Virus record (IMG/VR): IMGVR_UViG_3300042879_002474
Location: 1-21,390 of that record
Strand: one strand, 5' to 3'
DNA length: 21,390 bases
Source of the DNA: a virus
How positions within the stretch are numbered: the first letter of the stretch is position 1; each line of letters begins with the position of its first letter. The notes under the pieces were generated by a model. The model did not search any database, was not told where the DNA came from, and saw nothing but the letters and a program-made list of their open reading frames with translations. The position numbers were made by a program, and so were the translations under genes. Below, piece after piece: positions 2,292 to 16,809 of this stretch.

Positions 2292-3215
2292 ATGACCAAG
2301 ACCGACTTCGCTGTTCTGCAAGGACAGATCGACGCGCAGGCTGCGACCATTTCTGACGTTAGCGTCATTACGGTTGGCGAAGCCAAGGGCCACGGAATGC
2401 AAATCGACGCGCAAACGTTGGTTGAAGTGAAAGCCGCCGCCGAGACTTATGCGGGCGGGCTGAAAGTGAAGACGGATCACTACACCGGATTCAACGAGAT
2501 TGTCGGAACGCTGAAAAACTTCCGCATCGACGGCGATCAGCTACGCGCCGACTTGTTCCTGCTTAAGAATCACGATGCCACGGCTCGCATCTTGGAAATG
2601 GCCGAGCTTATGCCCGACACATTCGGTCTTTCGATCTCGTTCACGGGCGAACACGAAGAGAGCGACAACGATATTGTCTTTGCGCGCTGCACGGAGATTT
2701 ACAGCGCCGATCTGGTCGATGCCCCGGCGGCTAATCCCACGGGGCTGTTTAGCGTTAAGGTTGACAGCGAGAAAAAGGCTATGGACGAAAAGCAAATCGC
2801 TGACGCTATCGCTGCCGCTCTGGCCCCGGTCATCGCTGAAATGACCGATATGCAGGCCAAGCTCGCCGCTCTTGAAGTGGACGAAGAGAAGGAAATGACC
2901 GAGGACAAGCCCGAGGAAATGACCGAAGACAAAGCGATGGTCGAGCACGACGAAGAAAAGGAAGACATGAGCGCCAAGCTGGCCGCTGAAGTCTCCGAAC
3001 TGAAAGCCCTCGTCGCCAATTTCGGCGCAAAGCCCGTTTCGGTTGCCGTTGCCACCGAAGTCAAGGCCGAGCCTAAGACTCCTACCAATTTCAACGAAGC
3101 CCTCGACCTCGTTAAGTCCGAAGGCTTGAGCGGCACATCGGCCACCAAAGCCGTCATCGCTCGCTTCCCTGAACTTTTCCTTGCTGCCCGTAACAGCGGC
3201 ATTCGCACTCTCTAA
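2292..3215 (+). CDS. Prohead protease with C-terminal scaffold domain
   Basis: This 307-residue protein has two parts. Residues 1 to about 155 resemble phage prohead serine proteases, which cleave scaffold and capsid proteins during head maturation. Candidate catalytic residues are His63 in KTDHYTGF, a Ser in FGLSISF (114 or 116) and Asp140 or Asp143 in ADLVDAPAANPTG, the usual end of this fold. Residues about 164-307 form a highly acidic, Glu/Lys-rich segment with repeated EEMTEDK-type runs and helical stretches, as expected for a scaffold. The TTGACA element supports the start. An internal in-frame ATG with its own TTGACA at the domain junction suggests a separate scaffold product. Family assignment is by motif and position. 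Confidence 0.85.
   Translation: MTKTDFAVLQGQIDAQAATISDVSVITVGEAKGHGMQIDAQTLVEVKAAAETYAGGLKVKTDHYTGFNEIVGTLKNFRIDGDQLRADLFLLKNHDATARILEMAELMPDTFGLSISFTGEHEESDNDIVFARCTEIYSADLVDAPAANPTGLFSVKVDSEKKAMDEKQIADAIAAALAPVIAEMTDMQAKLAALEVDEEKEMTEDKPEEMTEDKAMVEHDEEKEDMSAKLAAEVSELKALVANFGAKPVSVAVATEVKAEPKTPTNFNEALDLVKSEGLSGTSATKAVIARFPELFLAARNSGIRTL
2761..2766 (+). promoter_or_regulatory. Internal TTGACA element, copy 3
   Basis: TTGACAG occurs inside the protease gene, 14 nt before the in-frame ATG at 2781. It encodes part of Val-Asp-Ser at the protease-scaffold junction. It is the only copy inside a gene that does not mark an annotated gene start, and it still faces an in-frame ATG at nearly the same distance. 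Confidence 0.45.
2781..3215 (+). CDS. Candidate nested scaffold protein (internal start)
   Basis: An internal in-frame ATG at codon 164 of the protease gene would give a 144-residue scaffold-only protein beginning MDEKQIADAIAAAL. It would contain only the acidic helical C-terminal domain. Phage lambda does this with protease C and nested scaffold Nu3. Two observations support it here: the ATG falls precisely after the end of the protease domain (NPTGLFSVKVDSEKKA), and a TTGACAG element precedes it as at seven gene starts. AAGG at 2775-2778 is too close to the ATG to be a good ribosome site. Expression is inferred. Confidence 0.5.
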   Translation: MDEKQIADAIAAALAPVIAEMTDMQAKLAALEVDEEKEMTEDKPEEMTEDKAMVEHDEEKEDMSAKLAAEVSELKALVANFGAKPVSVAVATEVKAEPKTPTNFNEALDLVKSEGLSGTSATKAVIARFPELFLAARNSGIRTL

Positions 3216-3227
3216 CCTAAAACTACT

Positions 3228-3581
3228 ATGGCATCACAAGTTGACTCCCTAAACCGCAGCTTCATCGCTGACGTTGCAATCAGCGCGTTCCGCTTGGTCA
3301 AACTGCACACCACGGAAAACGAAGTCGTGGCTGCAACCAACGGAGCCGCCATCGGGTTCACACAAGATGACGCTTCGGCGGATCAGACTGTGAACGTCAA
3401 ACTCTTTCACCCCACCTTCCTCGCCACCGTTTCGGGCGCGGGCGTTGCGGTCGGCTCGGCGATTCACGCCATTGCTGACGGCAAAGTCGCTTCCGCTGGC
3501 GGTGTTACTGTGGGCTTCGCAATCAACGCTGGCACGACCAACGACATCATTGAAGTCGCCGTGCCGAGCAAGAGCTTCTAA
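3228..3581 (+). CDS. Capsid decoration protein (DUF2190-like)
   Basis: This 117-residue, Ala/Val/Gly-rich, beta-predicted protein precedes the major capsid gene. It resembles the DUF2190-type small capsid cement proteins that bind the outer shell and stabilise the expanded head. Typical features are the central NGAAIGFTQDDASADQTVNV segment, with alternating short strands, and the late GVTVGFAINAGTTNDIIEVAV stretch. It begins 12 nt after the protease stop. That leader ends ACT before ATGGCAT, matching the leader of the next gene. There is neither a TTGACA element nor an obvious Shine-Dalgarno sequence. Position between protease and capsid protein matches lambda gpD. Confidence 0.75.
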   Translation: MASQVDSLNRSFIADVAISAFRLVKLHTTENEVVAATNGAAIGFTQDDASADQTVNVKLFHPTFLATVSGAGVAVGSAIHAIADGKVASAGGVTVGFAINAGTTNDIIEVAVPSKSF

Positions 3582-4580: not shown

Positions 4581-4612
4581 AACCCCGCCGGGAGGCGGGG
4601 TTTCTGCTTTTT
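4581..4612 (+). terminator. Intrinsic terminator after the capsid gene
   Basis: A perfect 9-bp stem pairs AACCCCGCC (4581-4589) with GGCGGGGTT (4594-4602) around a GGGA loop. It is followed by TCTGC and five T (4608-4612). It lies 25 nt after the capsid stop and would end or reduce head-gene transcription before the sugar-modification genes. The T tract runs directly into the TTGACA element of the next gene. Confidence 0.85.
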
Positions 4613-4616
4613 GACA
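4611..4616 (+). promoter_or_regulatory. TTGACA start-site element, copy 4
   Basis: TTTTTGACAG forms the end of the terminator T tract and lies 15 nt before the ATG at 4632. The spacer is 2 nt longer than in the main group and ends in AG rather than GC. Reading TTG here as a start codon would add seven residues ahead of the glycosyltransferase core, so it is better read as a signal. Confidence 0.55.
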
Positions 4617-4631
4617 GACGCCCTCGGGCAG

Positions 4632-6311
4632 ATGAAAATTGCCGTCTGCTTGATTGCAGGCAACGAGGCGGGCCTAATTAGCCGCGCTCTCGACTCTGCC
4701 TTCTCCGTAACCGATATCGTTGTTGTTGTCCGCGCCGTAGGGGGCCAGACGCCCGACCAAACGCTCGACGTTGCCCGTGAGCGCGGTTGCATTATCGGGG
4801 AATACCGCAACAGCCCCGCGACCGCATCGTGGCCGTTTGTGGACGATTTCGCCGCAGCGCGGAACATGGCTTTTCAGCTTGGCGCGGATACCGGGGCCGA
4901 GTGGCTGATGTGGATGGACTGCGACGATACGTTGCCCGCAGGCATGGGCGAGACGATCCGTAAAGCCTGCGAGGAAACCGTCGAGGATTGGATACTTGCG
5001 GAGTATGTCCTGCCCAATCACGGCAAGGCCGTTTGGCGCGAGCGGCTATTCCGCACCGGAACCGCCGCATGGTTTCACGGTGTGCATGAAAAGTGCGTCC
5101 CGGTCAGCAACGACAAGGACAAGGACTCGCTCAAGGTGCGGGTCAATCGCAACATCCGGGTCATTCATGAACCGCTAGGCGAGAAGACCGGATCGCAGGA
5201 ACGCAACATCAACATCCTGCGCTGGCGCTACCAAGAGGCGCAGCACTTAGCCTTCTACCTTCATTACGAATACTACCTCCTAGGCAACAAAGAAGAGGCC
5301 GTGCGCTACGGGCTGGAAGCCCTGCGGATGAAAGACCTTGATGGGGTCTATCGCTACGAAGTCTTTCTGAACCTCGCCCTGCTCGCCGGGGAGAACGCTC
5401 ACGGGCAAGACCTATGCCAGCGAGCGATCAAGCTCAACCCGCAACGCCGAGAGGCGCACAACATCCTCGCCTTGCTGCAAATGGACGCGGGGCAGACGGA
5501 GGACGCACTAAAGACCGCCGAGCATACGCTGACCATACCGCTGCCCAAGATACCGGAGTGGACGCACCGCCCCGATTGCTACAACTGGAAGGGCTACGCG
5601 ACCCTCGCATGGGCGCACAGGCTAGCGGGCAAAGAGGACGAGGCCGCGAAGATCGAAACGAAGATGCTAGAGGAAGGCGGCAAACCCCGCATTTCTCTGT
5701 TGCACGCCACGCGCGGGCGCTGGGCGCAGGCAATACAGGCAATGAATTTGTGGATGTCTCGCGCTGAAAACCCGATGTCCGTCGAGCACATCTTTGCCAT
5801 CGACGCCGATGACGAAGAATCCCAAGACAAGCTGCGGCGATTCCGTTGCACAATCTCCGCACAGGGCGGCTACTCGGTGCAGGCGTGGAACGTGGCCGCG
5901 CTCTGCTCGACGGGCGATGTCTTGATTCAGATGGCTGATGACTTTGAGCCGCCTGCGGGCTGGGATCGGCAAATCCTCGACGCGCTCGGCGGCAACATCT
6001 TCGCGCCGCGCGTGCTGCGCGTAGCAGACGGCAACCGCACAGACGGCTTGCTGACTTGCGCCATCGTGACCCGCCGCTGGTATGAGCAGCACGGATTGTT
6101 CCACGGAGAATATCGCAACGTGTATTCCGACAACGATCTTACCGCAACCGCGACCAAGGCCAGGGCAATCATCGAAGCCCCGCACATTGTCATTCGTCAC
6201 CACCATCCGTTCTTCAACGACAAGGTGCAGATGGATGCGACCTACGAGCGCGGCAATGACCCCGCCGAATACGAAAGAGCAAAGGCAATCTTTCAAGCCC
6301 GCCACCCATGA
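4632..6311 (+). CDS. Two-domain glycosyltransferase with TPR-like middle
   Basis: This 559-residue protein likely transfers sugars from nucleotide-sugar donors. Residues 1 to about 190 form a GT2-type GT-A domain: MKIAVCLIAGNEAG opens the first strand, DDFAAARNMAFQLG follows, and the metal-binding motif is WMDCDD (about 94-99). Residues about 200-345 are helical repeats of TPR type (EEAVRYGLEALRM, AHNILALLQMDAGQTEDAL). Residues about 352-559 form a second GT-A-like domain beginning RISLLHATRGRW, with MADDFEPPAGWD (about 434-445) as its DxD-type motif, then YSDND and an HHH cluster. The ATG was chosen because the GT core begins there. The stop overlaps the next start (ATGA). The target is not evident; capsid or tail proteins are the contextual guess. 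Confidence 0.85.
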   Translation: MKIAVCLIAGNEAGLISRALDSAFSVTDIVVVVRAVGGQTPDQTLDVARERGCIIGEYRNSPATASWPFVDDFAAARNMAFQLGADTGAEWLMWMDCDDTLPAGMGETIRKACEETVEDWILAEYVLPNHGKAVWRERLFRTGTAAWFHGVHEKCVPVSNDKDKDSLKVRVNRNIRVIHEPLGEKTGSQERNINILRWRYQEAQHLAFYLHYEYYLLGNKEEAVRYGLEALRMKDLDGVYRYEVFLNLALLAGENAHGQDLCQRAIKLNPQRREAHNILALLQMDAGQTEDALKTAEHTLTIPLPKIPEWTHRPDCYNWKGYATLAWAHRLAGKEDEAAKIETKMLEEGGKPRISLLHATRGRWAQAIQAMNLWMSRAENPMSVEHIFAIDADDEESQDKLRRFRCTISAQGGYSVQAWNVAALCSTGDVLIQMADDFEPPAGWDRQILDALGGNIFAPRVLRVADGNRTDGLLTCAIVTRRWYEQHGLFHGEYRNVYSDNDLTATATKARAIIEAPHIVIRHHHPFFNDKVQMDATYERGNDPAEYERAKAIFQARHP

Positions 6312-6907
6312 GCTATTCGCAGAACAACGAAGAGGCGGTCTTGCTCGACTATTTTGGCGACAAGGCAGACGGCACATTTTTGGAGATCGGCGCATTTCAT
6401 CCGACTCGCCACTCCAACACTCGCGCGCTGATTGAGCGCGGCTGGTCTGGCGTCATGGTCGAGATGTCGCCTTACGGGCTGGTCGATTTGATCGAATCCT
6501 ACAAAGACAACCCTCGCATCCGCATCGTCGCCGGGGCCGTGACGATTAACGCGCAGCCGCCTGCATCGGTATGGCTGATGCCCAAGGATGCTGAGAATGA
6601 CGGGGCGATTAGCACGACAGAGACATGGCATCGTGACAAATGGGCGGGGCGCGTGAGCGGCAAGCACATTGCCATGACTGCCGCGACACTCAGCATGACC
6701 GAACTCATGTGGATGCTGCCCCCGCAAATCGACCTTGTGAGCATAGACACGGAGGGAACCAGCGTGCAAATCGCCAGTGCGTTCGACTTTGATCGCTTTG
6801 GAGTCAAAGCCGTAGTGCTAGAGCATGACGGGGCGCAGGAAATCACCATGCCCTCATCCTTCAGAGTTGCCGCGATGAATACTGAAAACGTGATTTTTGT
6901 GCGATGA
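6308..6907 (+). CDS. FkbM-like methyltransferase
   Basis: This 199-residue protein resembles FkbM-family SAM-dependent methyltransferases, which often O-methylate sugars. The opening SYSQNNEEAVLLDYFG is typical of the phage and polysaccharide-locus subgroup. The SAM-binding motif I is FLEIGAF (about 24-30), followed by HPTRHSNTRALIERGW and the acidic VVEMSP-like strand end (VMVEMSP). IDLVSIDTEG (about 141-150) is the family's second signature. It overlaps both neighbours by 4 nt, so the three cassette genes are probably translated as a coupled unit. A natural role is methylating the glycan added by the flanking transferases. Confidence 0.82.
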   Translation: MSYSQNNEEAVLLDYFGDKADGTFLEIGAFHPTRHSNTRALIERGWSGVMVEMSPYGLVDLIESYKDNPRIRIVAGAVTINAQPPASVWLMPKDAENDGAISTTETWHRDKWAGRVSGKHIAMTAATLSMTELMWMLPPQIDLVSIDTEGTSVQIASAFDFDRFGVKAVVLEHDGAQEITMPSSFRVAAMNTENVIFVR

Positions 6908-7497
6908 AACGCGCGCCAATACCGGAGTTGTCCGTTCTGATTCCAACGATCACGGAGCGCGAGCAAGAAGCCAATGCCTTGTTCCGGTCGCTAGAAGGCC
7001 GCGTAAGGGGCCGCAACGTCGAGATACTAATGATGCGCGACAACTGCTTGAGCGGTATCGGGGAGGCGCGGAACAAGCTCCTACGCGCAGCGGGTGGAAA
7101 ATATATCACCTTCTTAGATGACGATGACGCCTTGTGCGAAGGCTACTTTGAGCTAGTGCTCGACAACATCCGCCACGACCGGGACGTAATCACGTTCGAT
7201 CAATGGGCGACAGTCGATGGCGCGGAAGGCAGGATCAACTGCCGCCTCGGTCACGAATTGGAACCCTTCCGCCCCGGTCTAGTGACCAAACGCCCGCCGT
7301 GGTTCTGGTGCGTCTGGCGCCGGGAGTTGGCTTCTGCTTACGCCGTTCCACAAGTCCGCGCGCAGGAAGATGTGCTTTGGCTGCGCCACCTATGGGCCGA
7401 GGCCGAAACGGAGGCGCACATCCCGCAAGTGCTGCACCGCTACAATTTCTCCAGCGCGACCACGACCCTTCAGAAGCCATTGACAGAAGGGGGATAG
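6904..7497 (+). CDS. Small GT2-type glycosyltransferase
   Basis: This 197-residue protein is a compact family 2 glycosyltransferase. LSVLIPTITER (about 9-19) is the first strand of the nucleotide-binding fold, GIGEARNKLLRAAGGKYITFLDDDD (about 51-75) leads into the DxD metal-binding motif, and QEDVLWLRHLW (about 154-164) carries the usual late acidic catalytic region. It lacks a long C-terminal acceptor domain. The start overlaps the methyltransferase stop. The last codons (Pro-Leu-Thr-Glu-Gly-Gly) contain the TTGACA element for the next gene, whose ATG begins two bases after this stop. Confidence 0.83.
   Translation: MKRAPIPELSVLIPTITEREQEANALFRSLEGRVRGRNVEILMMRDNCLSGIGEARNKLLRAAGGKYITFLDDDDALCEGYFELVLDNIRHDRDVITFDQWATVDGAEGRINCRLGHELEPFRPGLVTKRPPWFWCVWRRELASAYAVPQVRAQEDVLWLRHLWAEAETEAHIPQVLHRYNFSSATTTLQKPLTEGG
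7480..7485 (+). promoter_or_regulatory. TTGACA start-site element, copy 5
   Basis: TTGACAG lies inside the final codons of the glycosyltransferase gene, 13 nt before the ATG at 7499, with GC directly before that ATG. This spacer also contains a G-rich run (AGGGGGAT) that could act as a weak Shine-Dalgarno sequence. Confidence 0.6.
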
Positions 7498-13025: not shown

Positions 13026-13691
13026 ATGCCTTCCCTCGTCCACGCATCCTCCCGCCTCACGGGTTCTCCTGGCGTTGCCTTGGTATCGCATAGCGTCTCA
13101 GAGCAGGCAAATGGACTTTATAGCGTATCCTGCGAGTTTGTTTGCCGAGCAACTAATTCCCTTGCTGTGGACAATCTGTTTTACCCGGATGCCGAGCCGC
13201 CAGTTTATCCATCTGCCGTCAATAAGCAGTATCTATTGAGTGGTCGCTTATTTATGAGCGACAGGGAAGTAAAGACCGAAAACGGATTAAGCTACATCTC
13301 GGCATCGTATGCTTCGGGTATCACCCGCAACGGGAGTTTTGGTTACATCTCAACAGAACGAGAAAGCCTAGTTTACAAGTTTTATCCCCTTGCACTTGAT
13401 ACCGATGGAGCCCTGCGATCGTGGATCGCATTGTCTTACGTGCCCATAGTCATCACCCACGAATATGTGCAAGTTGGCAATGAAAAGTCTGCGGTATTCG
13501 TGCCCCCGCAGCCAGATGATCTGTATGCGCTAATTGCATTTAGTGGAGTAGGAGTGTTTACGACTACTGTAGAAAAATTTGCAAGAAACCTTATACGCCC
13601 GCTTGCGCGAACCGACGACACAGCAAGAACAAGTATCACGCCAAGTGTCATCGTGAAGCAAACACGATACTACATCGAAGACACCGCCTAA
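13026..13691 (+). CDS. Unrecognised tail-tip candidate
   Basis: This 221-residue protein directly follows the tape measure, where distal tail or tail-tip proteins are usual. It is mostly beta-predicted with many Ser, Tyr and Val residues. Visible stretches include NGLYSVSCEFVCRATNSLAV, NKQYLLSGRLFMSDREV, ISASYASGITRNGSFGYIS and a late FARNLIRPLARTDDTART. I do not recognise a Dit, gpM or gpL family. It starts 6 nt after the tape-measure stop without a TTGACA element or clear ribosome site. From here the base composition becomes more AT-rich. A structural tail role is inferred from position. Confidence 0.6.
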   Translation: MPSLVHASSRLTGSPGVALVSHSVSEQANGLYSVSCEFVCRATNSLAVDNLFYPDAEPPVYPSAVNKQYLLSGRLFMSDREVKTENGLSYISASYASGITRNGSFGYISTERESLVYKFYPLALDTDGALRSWIALSYVPIVITHEYVQVGNEKSAVFVPPQPDDLYALIAFSGVGVFTTTVEKFARNLIRPLARTDDTARTSITPSVIVKQTRYYIEDTA

Positions 13692-13697
13692 TAATGT

Positions 13698-14039
13698 ATG
13701 GCCGCTCCCGATCTGCACAAATTTAGAGACGATCTAAAGAATCGCCCCGGCCCCGGAAGCAATGCCCCTCCCCGCAGCATCCGCGCAGAAGACCTAGACG
13801 AAAACTACAAAAAGGTCACTTTGATCGAGAGTGATAAATCGCCCAAACTTTACGATCTTCGCTACACAAAAGACGGAACGCGGCTCACGCGACTCATGCC
13901 AGACGGCACAAATGTCGGAGACTTACTTTACTGGAATGGGACGCGATGGGTCACGTTGCGGGCCGTTGTTTCAGGCCAGATGCACGTGCTGACCATTACC
14001 AACAATGTTCTTTCTTGGACGCAAACCGAAGACTGCTAG
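13698..14039 (+). CDS. Small unrecognised tail-region protein
   Basis: This 113-residue protein has a charged N-terminal half (PDLHKFRDDLKNRPGPGSN) and then IRAEDLDENYKKVTLI. Its C-terminal part contains GDLLYWNGTRWVTL. The short GxLLYWNGTxWxxL pattern is common at the ends or junctions of phage fibre and baseplate proteins, where it marks a small beta unit. The gene starts 6 nt after the preceding stop, and its own stop (TAG at 14037-14039) abuts the next ATG. No ribosome site is clear. A minor tail-tip or fibre-connector role is a contextual guess. Confidence 0.55.
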   Translation: MAAPDLHKFRDDLKNRPGPGSNAPPRSIRAEDLDENYKKVTLIESDKSPKLYDLRYTKDGTRLTRLMPDGTNVGDLLYWNGTRWVTLRAVVSGQMHVLTITNNVLSWTQTEDC

Positions 14040-14750
14040 ATGGCAACGATTAAAACGCAGACCGCTGGCGGGGTAAGGCGTATCATTACTAAGGCGGTCA
14101 ACGGCCAGCGGCGCGTCAGTTGTTCGTGTTGCGAGGCGGGGTGCTGTATGTATCCTGCGCAGGCTTTTAATAGTATTTTTACGATTGATGATTTGCCAGA
14201 CGAGGTAAAAGTTGAAGGCATTATTTATACAAAGGTTGGTTCTCCCTACACAATTACAGCGGAAACTGAATCTTTTGAGGTTTATTATGAAGGACGCTTG
14301 CTTCAAAGCCCAGAAGTGCAAGAGTTTATTGCTATTGCCAATTTTGCGCCAAACCAATGGACGCAAGGCACACTTCTTGCTTTTACGAGCTTCGATTGTT
14401 TAATAACTGAATTTAGTGTAATCACAGACACTTTTGAAGACACTTACACAGTTGCTACCCCATTTAGTTCTGGAACCGTAACCAGATTTGCATTGTGTAA
14501 TTGGGCGGGCATTGATGGCAATGGGTGCCCATTACAATTACTTTATGGCGGATTTGAAGGCGATCCAGAAACAGCCGAAAGCGGCCTAAAATGGAGTGTT
14601 AGTTTTCAGAAATATGAAGAACCAGAAGGATTGCCAGCGGGTTGCACCGTTAGTTATGGCAGGCTAAAAGGCGGATTTCAAAATTCTCCTGTTGGCACTT
14701 ATAACATTGTTTATGCCACCGAAGGGTCGGAATTTGCCACCGTTTCTTAG
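14040..14750 (+). CDS. AT-rich gene with N-terminal cysteine cluster
   Basis: This 236-residue protein has an N-terminal cluster of five cysteines (28, 30, 31, 35, 36) in SCSCCEAGCCMYPA. The rest is acidic, beta-predicted and aromatic-rich, with further single cysteines. The cluster could bind metal or form disulfides; neither is proven. Three 60-base lines counted by hand are about 35-40% GC, against 53-68% in lines from neighbouring structural genes, which suggests recent acquisition. The ATG directly abuts the preceding stop and the gene ends 1 nt before the next ATG. I do not recognise the family. Confidence 0.6.
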   Translation: MATIKTQTAGGVRRIITKAVNGQRRVSCSCCEAGCCMYPAQAFNSIFTIDDLPDEVKVEGIIYTKVGSPYTITAETESFEVYYEGRLLQSPEVQEFIAIANFAPNQWTQGTLLAFTSFDCLITEFSVITDTFEDTYTVATPFSSGTVTRFALCNWAGIDGNGCPLQLLYGGFEGDPETAESGLKWSVSFQKYEEPEGLPAGCTVSYGRLKGGFQNSPVGTYNIVYATEGSEFATVS

Positions 14751-14751
14751 A

Positions 14752-14973
14752 ATGACCTGCCCCCACCAAACCCGCATCCGCGACAGAGGGCAATTCACTT
14801 GCTCCCTTGGCTACTACGGCGGAAAGCCTTGGCTTGGAAACTGCATTGACTGCATGAAGCGCGGCGACAACACGCCCGAAGCCAAGGCTGCTTTTGATGC
14901 CAAGGGAGAACGCGCCCACCCCGCCTCCCGCCCGCGCCTTTCCGGTTGCTGCGACAGAGCGGATCAAGCCTAG
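14752..14973 (+). CDS. Small cysteine-rich protein, possible zinc binder
   Basis: This 73-residue protein begins MTCPHQTRIRDRGQFTC and carries Cys3, His5, Cys17, Cys31 and Cys34 (CIDC), then a late CC pair (66-67). The spacing of Cys3, Cys17 and the Cys-x-x-Cys at 31-34 would fit a small zinc-binding or disulfide-knotted fold. The ATG is 1 nt after the preceding stop. A longer in-frame start 60 nt upstream would overlap that gene and add residues without similar character, so I rejected it. Function is unknown. It pairs with another cysteine-bearing gene just upstream. Confidence 0.55.
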   Translation: MTCPHQTRIRDRGQFTCSLGYYGGKPWLGNCIDCMKRGDNTPEAKAAFDAKGERAHPASRPRLSGCCDRADQA

Positions 14974-15005: not shown

Positions 15006-16103
15006 ATGGCGCGCAAGCTCTACTTGGATGTCGATACAGGCAGATTCGTCGCAGGACTCAACGGCGGCGTGCCGCCTAATCTGTCTGCCTTTGAGGGCGA
15101 CAATGCCGATTACGAGCTTTATTTCCTAACCGCAGGCACGGGCAGCAGCGCATACGAGCCGCTGGATTACTCGTCTAAGTCGGTCAAACTGCACATTGGC
15201 CCAAAGCCGCCCTCGACGGCTACGGCCTACGTTGCCGCGCAGGCGTGGTCGAATCTTCCCATAACGGTCAGCGCGACACTCGCGCGCACGATTACCGGAG
15301 GAACCGCCGCCAATGAGCAGCAAGTGCTTTCCTTCAGCCCGGACGCCTACGATGGAACCTTTGCGCTAACTTTCCCAAGCCAAGCTCTGACCTTTTCCAG
15401 CGTCACAGGCGGGCTTTTTACGACGAGCGGTTCGCACGGGCTTGCCGCAGGGCAGGCTTTTGTGGTCACGGGATTCGGGACGCCAACGGGGTTCAGTAAC
15501 GGATCGACGCTCTACACCGCGCAGCTTGTCTCGGGCAGTCAGTTCTACGCGAACACAACGGCCACGACTAGCGCAATAACTAGCTACACGGCGACCACAG
15601 CGGGAACAGGATACACCCTTACGGCCACGACCAGCGTTATTGAGGCGCGGGCCGCGACTACGGCGGTAGAGGATGCGCTTGAAGCAATTTCGCCTATCGG
15701 CACGGGCAACGTGCGCGTGACCGGGATTGCGGGGCGAATTTATCGCATAGCCTTTACCGGAGCGAAAAGCCAAGTCGCGCTCCCCCTTATGACCGTAGCT
15801 CAAGCCTTAACCCCGGTCTACGGCAAAACGGCTACGCTTAACTTCAACACGACCGAGCTGATCAACGCGATTAGCGCATCGGCCAGCATTGAGGCAACGA
15901 TGGAAGTGGAGGTAAGCCAGAGCGGCAAGATCGAAACCGTGACGCAAGCCCTCGTTACCCTCGGCAATGACATTATTGCGACAACCGGGGGCGTTCCGGT
16001 CACGGTAAGTCCCGCTGCTTTCTTTTATCTTCAGTCACCGGACAACTCTACGTGGAGCATTAGTGTAGCGAATGACGGCTCGCTAACCGCCGCAAAACTC
16101 TAA
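15006..16103 (+). CDS. Tail / baseplate adhesin with FCCH-like domain
   Basis: This 365-residue protein opens with KLYLDVDTGRFVAG and a strand-rich domain (about 1-125, with DYELYFLTAGTGSSAYEPL) similar to N-terminal baseplate-attachment domains of phage fibres. Residues about 130-180 contain TSGSHGLAAGQAFVVTGFG and LYTAQLVSGSQFYA. This HGLxxGDxVxxxG plus YxVxxxxxxxFxxA layout is known from FCCH-like domains in phage tail proteins. A Thr/Ala/Ser-rich beta repeat region follows, ending AFFYLQSPDNSTWSISVANDG. The start at 15006 is supported by a TTGACA element and lies after the preceding stop. The likely role is a tail-surface or receptor-contact protein. Confidence 0.6.
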   Translation: MARKLYLDVDTGRFVAGLNGGVPPNLSAFEGDNADYELYFLTAGTGSSAYEPLDYSSKSVKLHIGPKPPSTATAYVAAQAWSNLPITVSATLARTITGGTAANEQQVLSFSPDAYDGTFALTFPSQALTFSSVTGGLFTTSGSHGLAAGQAFVVTGFGTPTGFSNGSTLYTAQLVSGSQFYANTTATTSAITSYTATTAGTGYTLTATTSVIEARAATTAVEDALEAISPIGTGNVRVTGIAGRIYRIAFTGAKSQVALPLMTVAQALTPVYGKTATLNFNTTELINAISASASIEATMEVEVSQSGKIETVTQALVTLGNDIIATTGGVPVTVSPAAFFYLQSPDNSTWSISVANDGSLTAAKL

Positions 16104-16107
16104 CATT

Positions 16108-16809
16108 ATGAAATTCTTTTGCATCCTTCTCGCCACCCTCTGCGCGGCCACCAGCTTCGGGCAGACGATCAAATCGCTCGGATTTAACACCACCAACGGA
16201 GAGGTAGTCGCTAATACCACGAACACGCTCACGTTTACCAATGCAGGCGTGGCTTTTGGCGGCGACATGACCATAAGCGGGCCAGTAATTGCTGGAAGCG
16301 GCGTCTCGTTTTCCTTTGAGGACGCCGATTTTGCCTACGGCGCATCTATCGTTCGCCAGAACCTTGGCTTCTCCACCAACCTCAACACTTTGTGGACTGC
16401 GACCAACTCAAGCAACGCGCGGAGTGCGGTCGGCCTCGAAGCGACATGGCTCACCAACACAAACGTCACGAATTTTCGGACAGCGATTGGGTTGGGGGTA
16501 TCAAATGAGGTCACGTTTGAGGCCATTGTTGGGGGCTCTAGATCAATTCATATGGTAAACGGCGAATTTATGGGGGCTTGGTATTTTGATGACTCAGTTA
16601 GCTTCGGTGCGCCAAATGTTGTCCGCACCAACGTCGGCCTCCCGCTCGCCGCCCTCACCAACACCAGCAACGTCACCATGATGCGGGCGCTGGCGGGGAG
16701 CACAAATACAAATCAGCCGTTTAGCGGGACGATTTCGTTTCCAGACGCAAACAACGACGATCAAACAATCACTATTTCTAACGGCATTATTGTGAATTGG
16801 ACGCCATGA
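16108..16809 (+). CDS. Fibre-like protein with Sec signal peptide
   Basis: This 233-residue protein starts with a clear signal peptide: MK, a hydrophobic FFCILLATLCAA core and likely cleavage near SFGQ (about 16-19). The mature part is fibre-like with Asn/Thr-rich units. Repeats of an R-x-x-(V/I/L)-G-(L/F) type occur (RQNLGF, RSAVGL, RTAIGL, RTNVGL), separated by WLTNTN or ALTNTS linkers, a pattern known from phage tail fibres. A signal peptide on a virion-like protein is unexpected and suggests export during infection, display on the host surface, or capture of a host gene. It starts 4 nt after the previous stop and overlaps the next gene by 4 nt. Confidence 0.65.
   Translation: MKFFCILLATLCAATSFGQTIKSLGFNTTNGEVVANTTNTLTFTNAGVAFGGDMTISGPVIAGSGVSFSFEDADFAYGASIVRQNLGFSTNLNTLWTATNSSNARSAVGLEATWLTNTNVTNFRTAIGLGVSNEVTFEAIVGGSRSIHMVNGEFMGAWYFDDSVSFGAPNVVRTNVGLPLAALTNTSNVTMMRALAGSTNTNQPFSGTISFPDANNDDQTITISNGIIVNWTP

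Follow-up and report, generated by a model that had tools for sequence, protein, structure and literature searches.

A candidate tail-tip host-recognition cassette with conserved cysteine-bearing ends in uncultured phages

The sequence analyzed here, referred to below as the window, is the whole of a 21,390-base linear virus record from IMG/VR (IMGVR_UViG_3300042879_002474), with an overall GC content of 57.7%. Matches to a portal protein (PF05136, E 7.9e-45), to a major head protein (phrog_1005) and to tape-measure proteins are found upstream of the two genes that are the subject of this article. The relatives of the portal protein among annotated phages are all distant (best E 1e-25, mostly under 60% identity). 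The interval between the head and tail genes contains glycosyltransferase matches at 4611–6311 and 6904–7497 as well as a protein resembling FkbM methyltransferases (6308–6907) that falls slightly below the Pfam cut-off; the genes of this interval (4611–7497) are perhaps involved in glycan modification of the virion or the host.

The genes of interest lie on the plus strand. P0004 (221 residues; 13026–13691) directly follows the tape-measure gene; it has no family match of note and just three weak matches in annotated phages (E 0.1–0.4), and proteins of similar size are seen by eye at this position in several related loci. Next comes P0003 (113 residues; 13698–14039), the proposed stem, whose C-terminus reads ...WTQTEDC. 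Gene 1 (P0001, 236 residues; 14040–14750) combines an N-terminal cysteine cluster with a variable, mostly beta body and is our candidate for a recognition (adhesin) subunit. Gene 2 (P0002, 73 residues; 14752–14973) carries six conserved cysteines and is its proposed dedicated partner or chaperone. The two genes do not overlap, a single nucleotide lying between the stop of gene 1 and the start of gene 2.

Database searches with genes 1 and 2 (Pfam, PHROGs, NCBIfam and PDB sequences) returned no useful match to a receptor-binding protein, tail fibre or chaperone; the PDB sequences gave two matches only, with E values of 0.64 and 0.39. Gene 2 has no Pfam match at E up to 1, no PHROGs match, and no tblastn match to annotated phages at E up to 1, while gene 1 has a single weak match to annotated phages (E 0.1) and no useful one. 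The region at 15006–16103, beyond gene 2, has no match in annotated phages either. The structure model of gene 1 is of low confidence (pLDDT 68.2); Foldseek found no match to it at E 0.001 or below, and the best VIA match (Z 4.3, rmsd 3.1, 86 residues aligned) was among small beta barrels. Structural matches of this kind are weak, and an avidin-like barrel is not claimed for gene 1. The model of gene 2 (pLDDT 59.8) is too poor for a fold search.

As an earlier interpretation made from the letters alone (the sequence-only reading) had described, gene 1 contains five cysteines within nine residues, CSCCEAGCC (residues 28–36; 14121–14147, plus strand), that is, C28, C30, C31, C35 and C36, and it has four more at C120, C153, C163 and C202. 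All five cysteines of the cluster are invariant over 27 aligned gene-1 sequences, as are P53 and C153; more distant relatives keep SCxCC and lose the second CC. The possibility of a chance cluster was assessed with a set of the longest non-overlapping open reading frames of at least 100 residues from 29 loci, a few of which are near-identical. Three cysteines within five residues were found in the first 60 residues of 29 of these 276 frames, and 28 of the 29 are gene-1 relatives, which rules out chance.

The sequence-only reading had also placed both genes in an AT-rich island and suggested that they were acquired as a pair. The dip in GC content is real: positions 14221–14460 have 39.2% GC against 57.7% in the window (35–45% in individual 60-base lines; z about -3.9 relative to non-overlapping 240-base blocks). 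GC content over 240 bases reaches its minimum for the window in the stretch starting at 14165 (37.9%); among stretches clear of gene 1 the minimum is 45.4%. However, the dip is confined to the middle of gene 1. The cysteine-coding start of the gene (14040–14169) has 56.9% GC, the segment 14170–14435 has 37.6% and the remainder of the gene 45.1%, and gene 2, at 62.2%, lies outside the island and is of ordinary composition. The low GC content of gene 1 is shared across the lineage: in each of 28 loci the gene-1 relative is below the locus as a whole, and the gene-2 relative is above it in 25 of 28.

The nature of the dip is indicated by comparison with the nearest relative, contig 3300044707_000508 (L004; loci are designated by L and a number). 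In 100-base bins between 12.7 and 16.2 kb the identity is 0.88–1.00, mostly at least 0.94, except at 14101–14500, where the consecutive bins have identities of 0.83, 0.30, 0.40 and 0.79. The BLAST pieces stop at 14163–14169 and restart at 14424–14439, and within genes 1 and 2 only about 14170–14435 (plus strand), with the two bins at 0.30–0.40 as its core, is unrelated to the relative. This break coincides with the GC minimum, which marks the dip as a swapped segment inside gene 1 rather than an acquired gene pair. Joint acquisition of an AT-rich pair by the phage is already largely refuted by the narrow extent of the unrelated segment and by the GC content of gene 2 and of the N-terminal part of gene 1, and we regard it as highly improbable, the point in its favor being a pair of relatives, L023 and L024, in which an identity of 0.93–1.00 extends over the gene-1 body, gene 2 and some 250 bases beyond, amid divergent neighbors (0.68–0.73 in the gene before, lower further upstream, and 0.43–0.59 in the rest of the gene after).

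Sharp breaks in identity within gene 1, of different extent, are also seen in two further pairs. Nearly the whole of gene 1 is replaced between L014 and L025, with flanks that are 0.80–1.00 identical, and the C-terminal half of gene 1 is replaced between L030 and L031, where the region before P0003 differs too. The window and L004 also diverge in the tape-measure gene (before 12.7 kb) and in later fibre genes (after 16.2 kb), and consequently divergence is not unique to gene 1. Pairwise identities were compared for 140 of the 325 pairs among 26 sequences, chosen for a gene-2 identity of at least 0.70. Within gene 1 the body has a median identity of 0.27 and the N-terminal part one of 0.47, compared with 0.78 in gene 2, where identity was itself the selection criterion; for the flanks the median is 0.32 in the gene before (last 85 residues) and 0.47 in the gene after (first 120 residues, 77 pairs). 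Where all five segments are available (65 pairs), the gene-1 body is the least conserved of them in 48 pairs and is not in 17. Gene 1 has the variable body, the constant anchor and the exchange as a module between phages that characterize genes of the fibre or adhesin type.

The cysteines of gene 2 (C3, C17, C31, C34, C66 and C67) likewise agree with the earlier description as Cys3, Cys17, a CxxC and a CC, and the last two belong to its C-terminal tail, SGCCDRADQA (14941–14970, plus strand). A search with residues 1–63, which omit the tail, found 53 loci, of which 35 have a partner of the same kind as the window (type I) and 18 have one of a second kind (type III, L214–L231). SGCCD stands near the C-terminus in all 35 type I sequences (28 SGCCDRADQ and 7 SGCCDSA), and SGCCD[R/S]A does so in 50 of 50 type I relatives collected in all (45 distinct sequences; two cut-off copies and a GTDB copy were excluded). 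Exactly six cysteines are present in 49 of these 50 and seven in one, and a single four-cysteine spacing pattern fits 49, the exception being L033. The cysteines of both genes are conserved among the relatives. Of the two findings named as refuting the sequence-only reading, a composition shared across the lineage holds for gene 1, and a lack of cysteine conservation does not hold.

Type III partners are longer and lack SGCCD (L217 appears cut short). They are related to type I over the N-terminal half (hhalign 98.0%), and behind this half they carry a cysteine-rich domain of unknown function, DUF6171 or phrog_13558. All three type III sequences scanned match phrog_13558 (E 3.4e-13, 8.1e-5 and 0.0047); against DUF6171, L214 reaches E 5.1e-5 and 24 bits, under the cut-off of 27, and L216 and L225 have no match. 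Unlike type III, gene 2 of the window ends in SGCCDRADQA without such a domain, and membership in DUF6171, to which P0002 has no match, was rejected. The open reading frame downstream of the type III partner in L215, L218, L221, L225 and L228 resembles, we presume, a tyrosine recombinase, which would suggest temperate phages.

The same tail is also found on a second N-terminal domain without detectable homology to that of type I. Scanning viral contigs for GCCDRADQ gave 60 stretches, comprising 32 type I sequences, 11 in which the N-terminal domain differs (type II, MICVPA...) and 17 in other frames or due to chance, which were dropped. In all 43 retained sequences a single residue separates the motif from the stop codon. 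The sequence is SGCCDRADQ in 42 of them and HGCCDRADQ in one, L068. Type II occupies the same place in the gene order where the flanks allow this to be seen, and several type II loci, judged by eye, have the order tape measure, protein of 220–260 residues, P0003-like protein, cysteine protein, small cysteine protein and FLDxQ protein. There is no support for grouping types I and II in a single domain family (hhalign probability 0.8%, from shallow alignments of 23 and 5 sequences). Searches with type II sequences without the tail found 5 and 6 loci, every one on contigs already in the set. The divergent L068 (HGCCDRADQY), one of the 11 type II loci, is without an upstream flank, and an open reading frame near it is one that we take to resemble ParB.

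Synonymous codons vary at all nine positions of SGCCDRADQ among 37 sequences selected by the motif, which rules out a constraint at the DNA level and indicates that the constraint acts on the protein; the first cysteine codon has a synonymous variant in only 1 of the 37. A scan of GTDB for the C-terminal motif followed by a stop gave three matches, namely L097 (type I, 6.7 kb) and L098 (type II, 8.1 kb), both on contigs of metagenome-assembled genomes, and L096, which looks like chance. A looser motif scan was set aside; among the matches listed, 52 of 53 newly translated loci (L099–L151) represent one unrelated frame, G[G/S]NGCCDRADA. A literature search found no mention of the CCDRADQ motif or of the word DUF6171.

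The search of other phages showed that genes 1 and 2 are kept as a pair behind the tape-measure gene, with their cysteines conserved, which supports this part of the sequence-only reading. A gene with a dense N-terminal cysteine cluster immediately precedes gene 2 in 59 of 63 loci, the window included. In the other four, the locus starts at the contig edge (L202), the gene is cut (L183) or the cluster is looser (L216 and L217). Spacing in 26 type I loci amounts to a 4-nt overlap in 18, a 1-nt overlap in 2 and a gap of 1–5 nt in 6, including the window; the overlap of gene 2 with gene 1 in many relatives suggests that the two are probably translated together. In L033 the gene-1-like frame stops 281 bases short of gene 2. 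In the reverse direction, residues 1–40 of gene 1 as the query returned 31 loci, of which 14 were new and 17 lay on contigs where gene 2 had been seen before. The next gene is a gene-2 relative in 12 of the new loci, one locus is cut by the contig end, and in L259 the SCxCC gene is followed by a different small frame with six cysteines (3007–3270; CRACRSDPAW...CAKRRNALNRA). By adjacency alone, a small partner lies directly downstream in 59 of 63 loci and in 12 of 13 complete new loci. The frame in L259, with no Pfam family above the cut-off and no NCBIfam match, is possibly a further type of partner.

Such regular adjacency to a gene-1-like gene, divergent phages included and often with overlap, is difficult to reconcile with gene 2 being unrelated cargo, such as a regulator, a counter-defence gene or a gene with another early function that merely sits within the tail operon. 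We consider cargo improbable, even though the N-terminal domains of the partner vary by lineage (types I, II and III) as in modular accessory genes and no tail homologue is detectable in Pfam, PHROGs or NCBIfam.

The gene before gene 1 has two recognizable types of C-terminal end, W..T[E/Q].C (type A) and a CD/CN-G/N stretch (type B). Type A ends precede SCxCC starts of gene 1 and type B ends precede CCC starts in all 40 classifiable rows of 65 (33 A/A, 7 B/B and none mixed), the end types having been defined after viewing the ends. The remaining 25 rows did not fit the patterns, although by eye two of them, L005 and L213, resemble type A. The counts are uncorrected for relatedness, as some contigs in the set are nearly identical and one is represented twice (L077/L238). 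This matching could also arise from simple linkage of neighboring bases. The P0003-like protein of L033 contains collagen-like repeats (GEKGDKGDKGDP), a hint of a trimeric stem. A P0003-like stem is not universal; another gene is found at its place in L205, L209, L210 and L212, and type III loci have other upstream genes. The protein directly before the SCxCC gene in L205, L209, L210 and L212 has about 290–306 residues and presumably resembles a glycosyltransferase, with no Pfam match for the L205 copy.

We propose that genes 1 and 2 constitute a tail-tip host-recognition cassette with a variable adhesin body, fixed cysteine-bearing ends and a small cysteine-rich partner, and we assign this interpretation a probability of roughly 0.58. 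Gene 1 would be the recognition subunit, its body exchanged among phages via recombination, and the AT-rich island would be an exchanged piece of that body. The N-terminal SCxCC segment may serve as a constant plug, fitting into the preceding protein (the putative stem) at its cysteine-bearing C-terminus. Gene 2 would serve as a small assembly chaperone or cap, whose fixed SGCCD[R/S]A tail may recognize the constant part of the joint. The arrangement looks like an undescribed kit for changing the host-recognizing part of the phage.

Modules of a fibre and its chaperone, in which the fibre gene is immediately followed by that of its helper, offer the closest parallel considered here. The gp38 protein of phage T4 is required for the folding of gp37 (PMC6957217), and in Alteromonas phages a host recognition module of a tail fibre and its cognate chaperone is described as exchanged among distant phages (PMC10579305). 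As in T4 gp37/gp38 and in the fibre and chaperone of Alteromonas phages A5/V22, a putative recognition gene is accompanied here by its own helper and exchange is module-wise. In contrast to those modules, the fixed end of gene 1 is N-terminal and rich in cysteine, the partner is cysteine-rich with an invariant CC tail, and neither gene matches a known fibre or chaperone family in Pfam, PHROGs or NCBIfam.

Gene 2 could instead be a structural protein of the virion, a tip plug or cap whose cysteine domain and SGCCD tail stay in the particle in the manner of the iron-sulfur domain of gpL. Conserved cysteines in a gene of the tail module or tail-tip region are what this alternative leads one to expect, and PMC10721106 and PMC7296036 describe a four-cysteine iron-sulfur site in the tail tip for both lambda gpL and the RcGTA hub. 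However, the cysteine spacing differs (173, 182, 205 and 212 in gpL versus 3, 17, 31 and 34 plus 66 and 67 in P0002), on which ground membership of gene 2 with gpL was rejected. Moreover, gene 2 is a separate protein of 73 residues rather than a domain of the hub protein, and it has no profile match, including none in Pfam at E up to 1. We view a structural role of this kind as unlikely, though deserving serious attention.

Returning to the recognition cassette, its cysteines suggest a further step. Phages assemble in the reducing cytoplasm, which makes putative metal coordination by the cysteine clusters a reasonable guess. We put forward only tentatively, and with considerable doubt, a standard docking joint loaded with zinc or iron-sulfur, in which three ends of adjacent tail proteins would meet: the stem with its C-terminal cysteines, the recognition subunit with its SCxCC plug, and a small carrier, delivering or holding the metal, with its SGCCD[R/S]A tail. 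Because such a joint would be fixed, the receptor-binding bodies behind it could be exchanged, and unrelated carrier domains would have converged on, or exchanged, the same tail. It is difficult to infer from sequence which hosts an uncultured phage can infect. If the proposed interpretation is true, the SCxCC N-terminus and the SGCCD tail flag the swappable recognition gene even where environmental phages lack annotated relatives, and they open the idea of a cysteine-based universal joint in the tail tip to testing.

Two minor observations concern the region downstream of gene 2. The second gene after it (16108–16809) starts with a signal peptide that appears Sec-like by eye (MKFFCILLATLCAATSFGQ), and the equivalent gene in L058, L059, L077 and L098 begins with MKRALLILL...ASAQ, also Sec-like by eye. 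The heptamer TTTGACA occurs at 79, 2272, 4610, 14984 and 21019, five times on the plus strand of the window and never on the minus strand, each time 20–22 nt upstream of an ATG (99, 2292, 4632, 15006 and 21039); with one mismatch permitted, the strand bias in the window is absent (25 vs 22). In 28 related loci, an open reading frame starts 10–35 nt downstream of 19 of 31 distinct forward copies, compared to 2047 of 11200 random positions, and in 30 of 37 sequences a copy of TTTGACA lies no more than 70 nt downstream of gene 2. This heptamer is possibly a phage-specific promoter or start signal.
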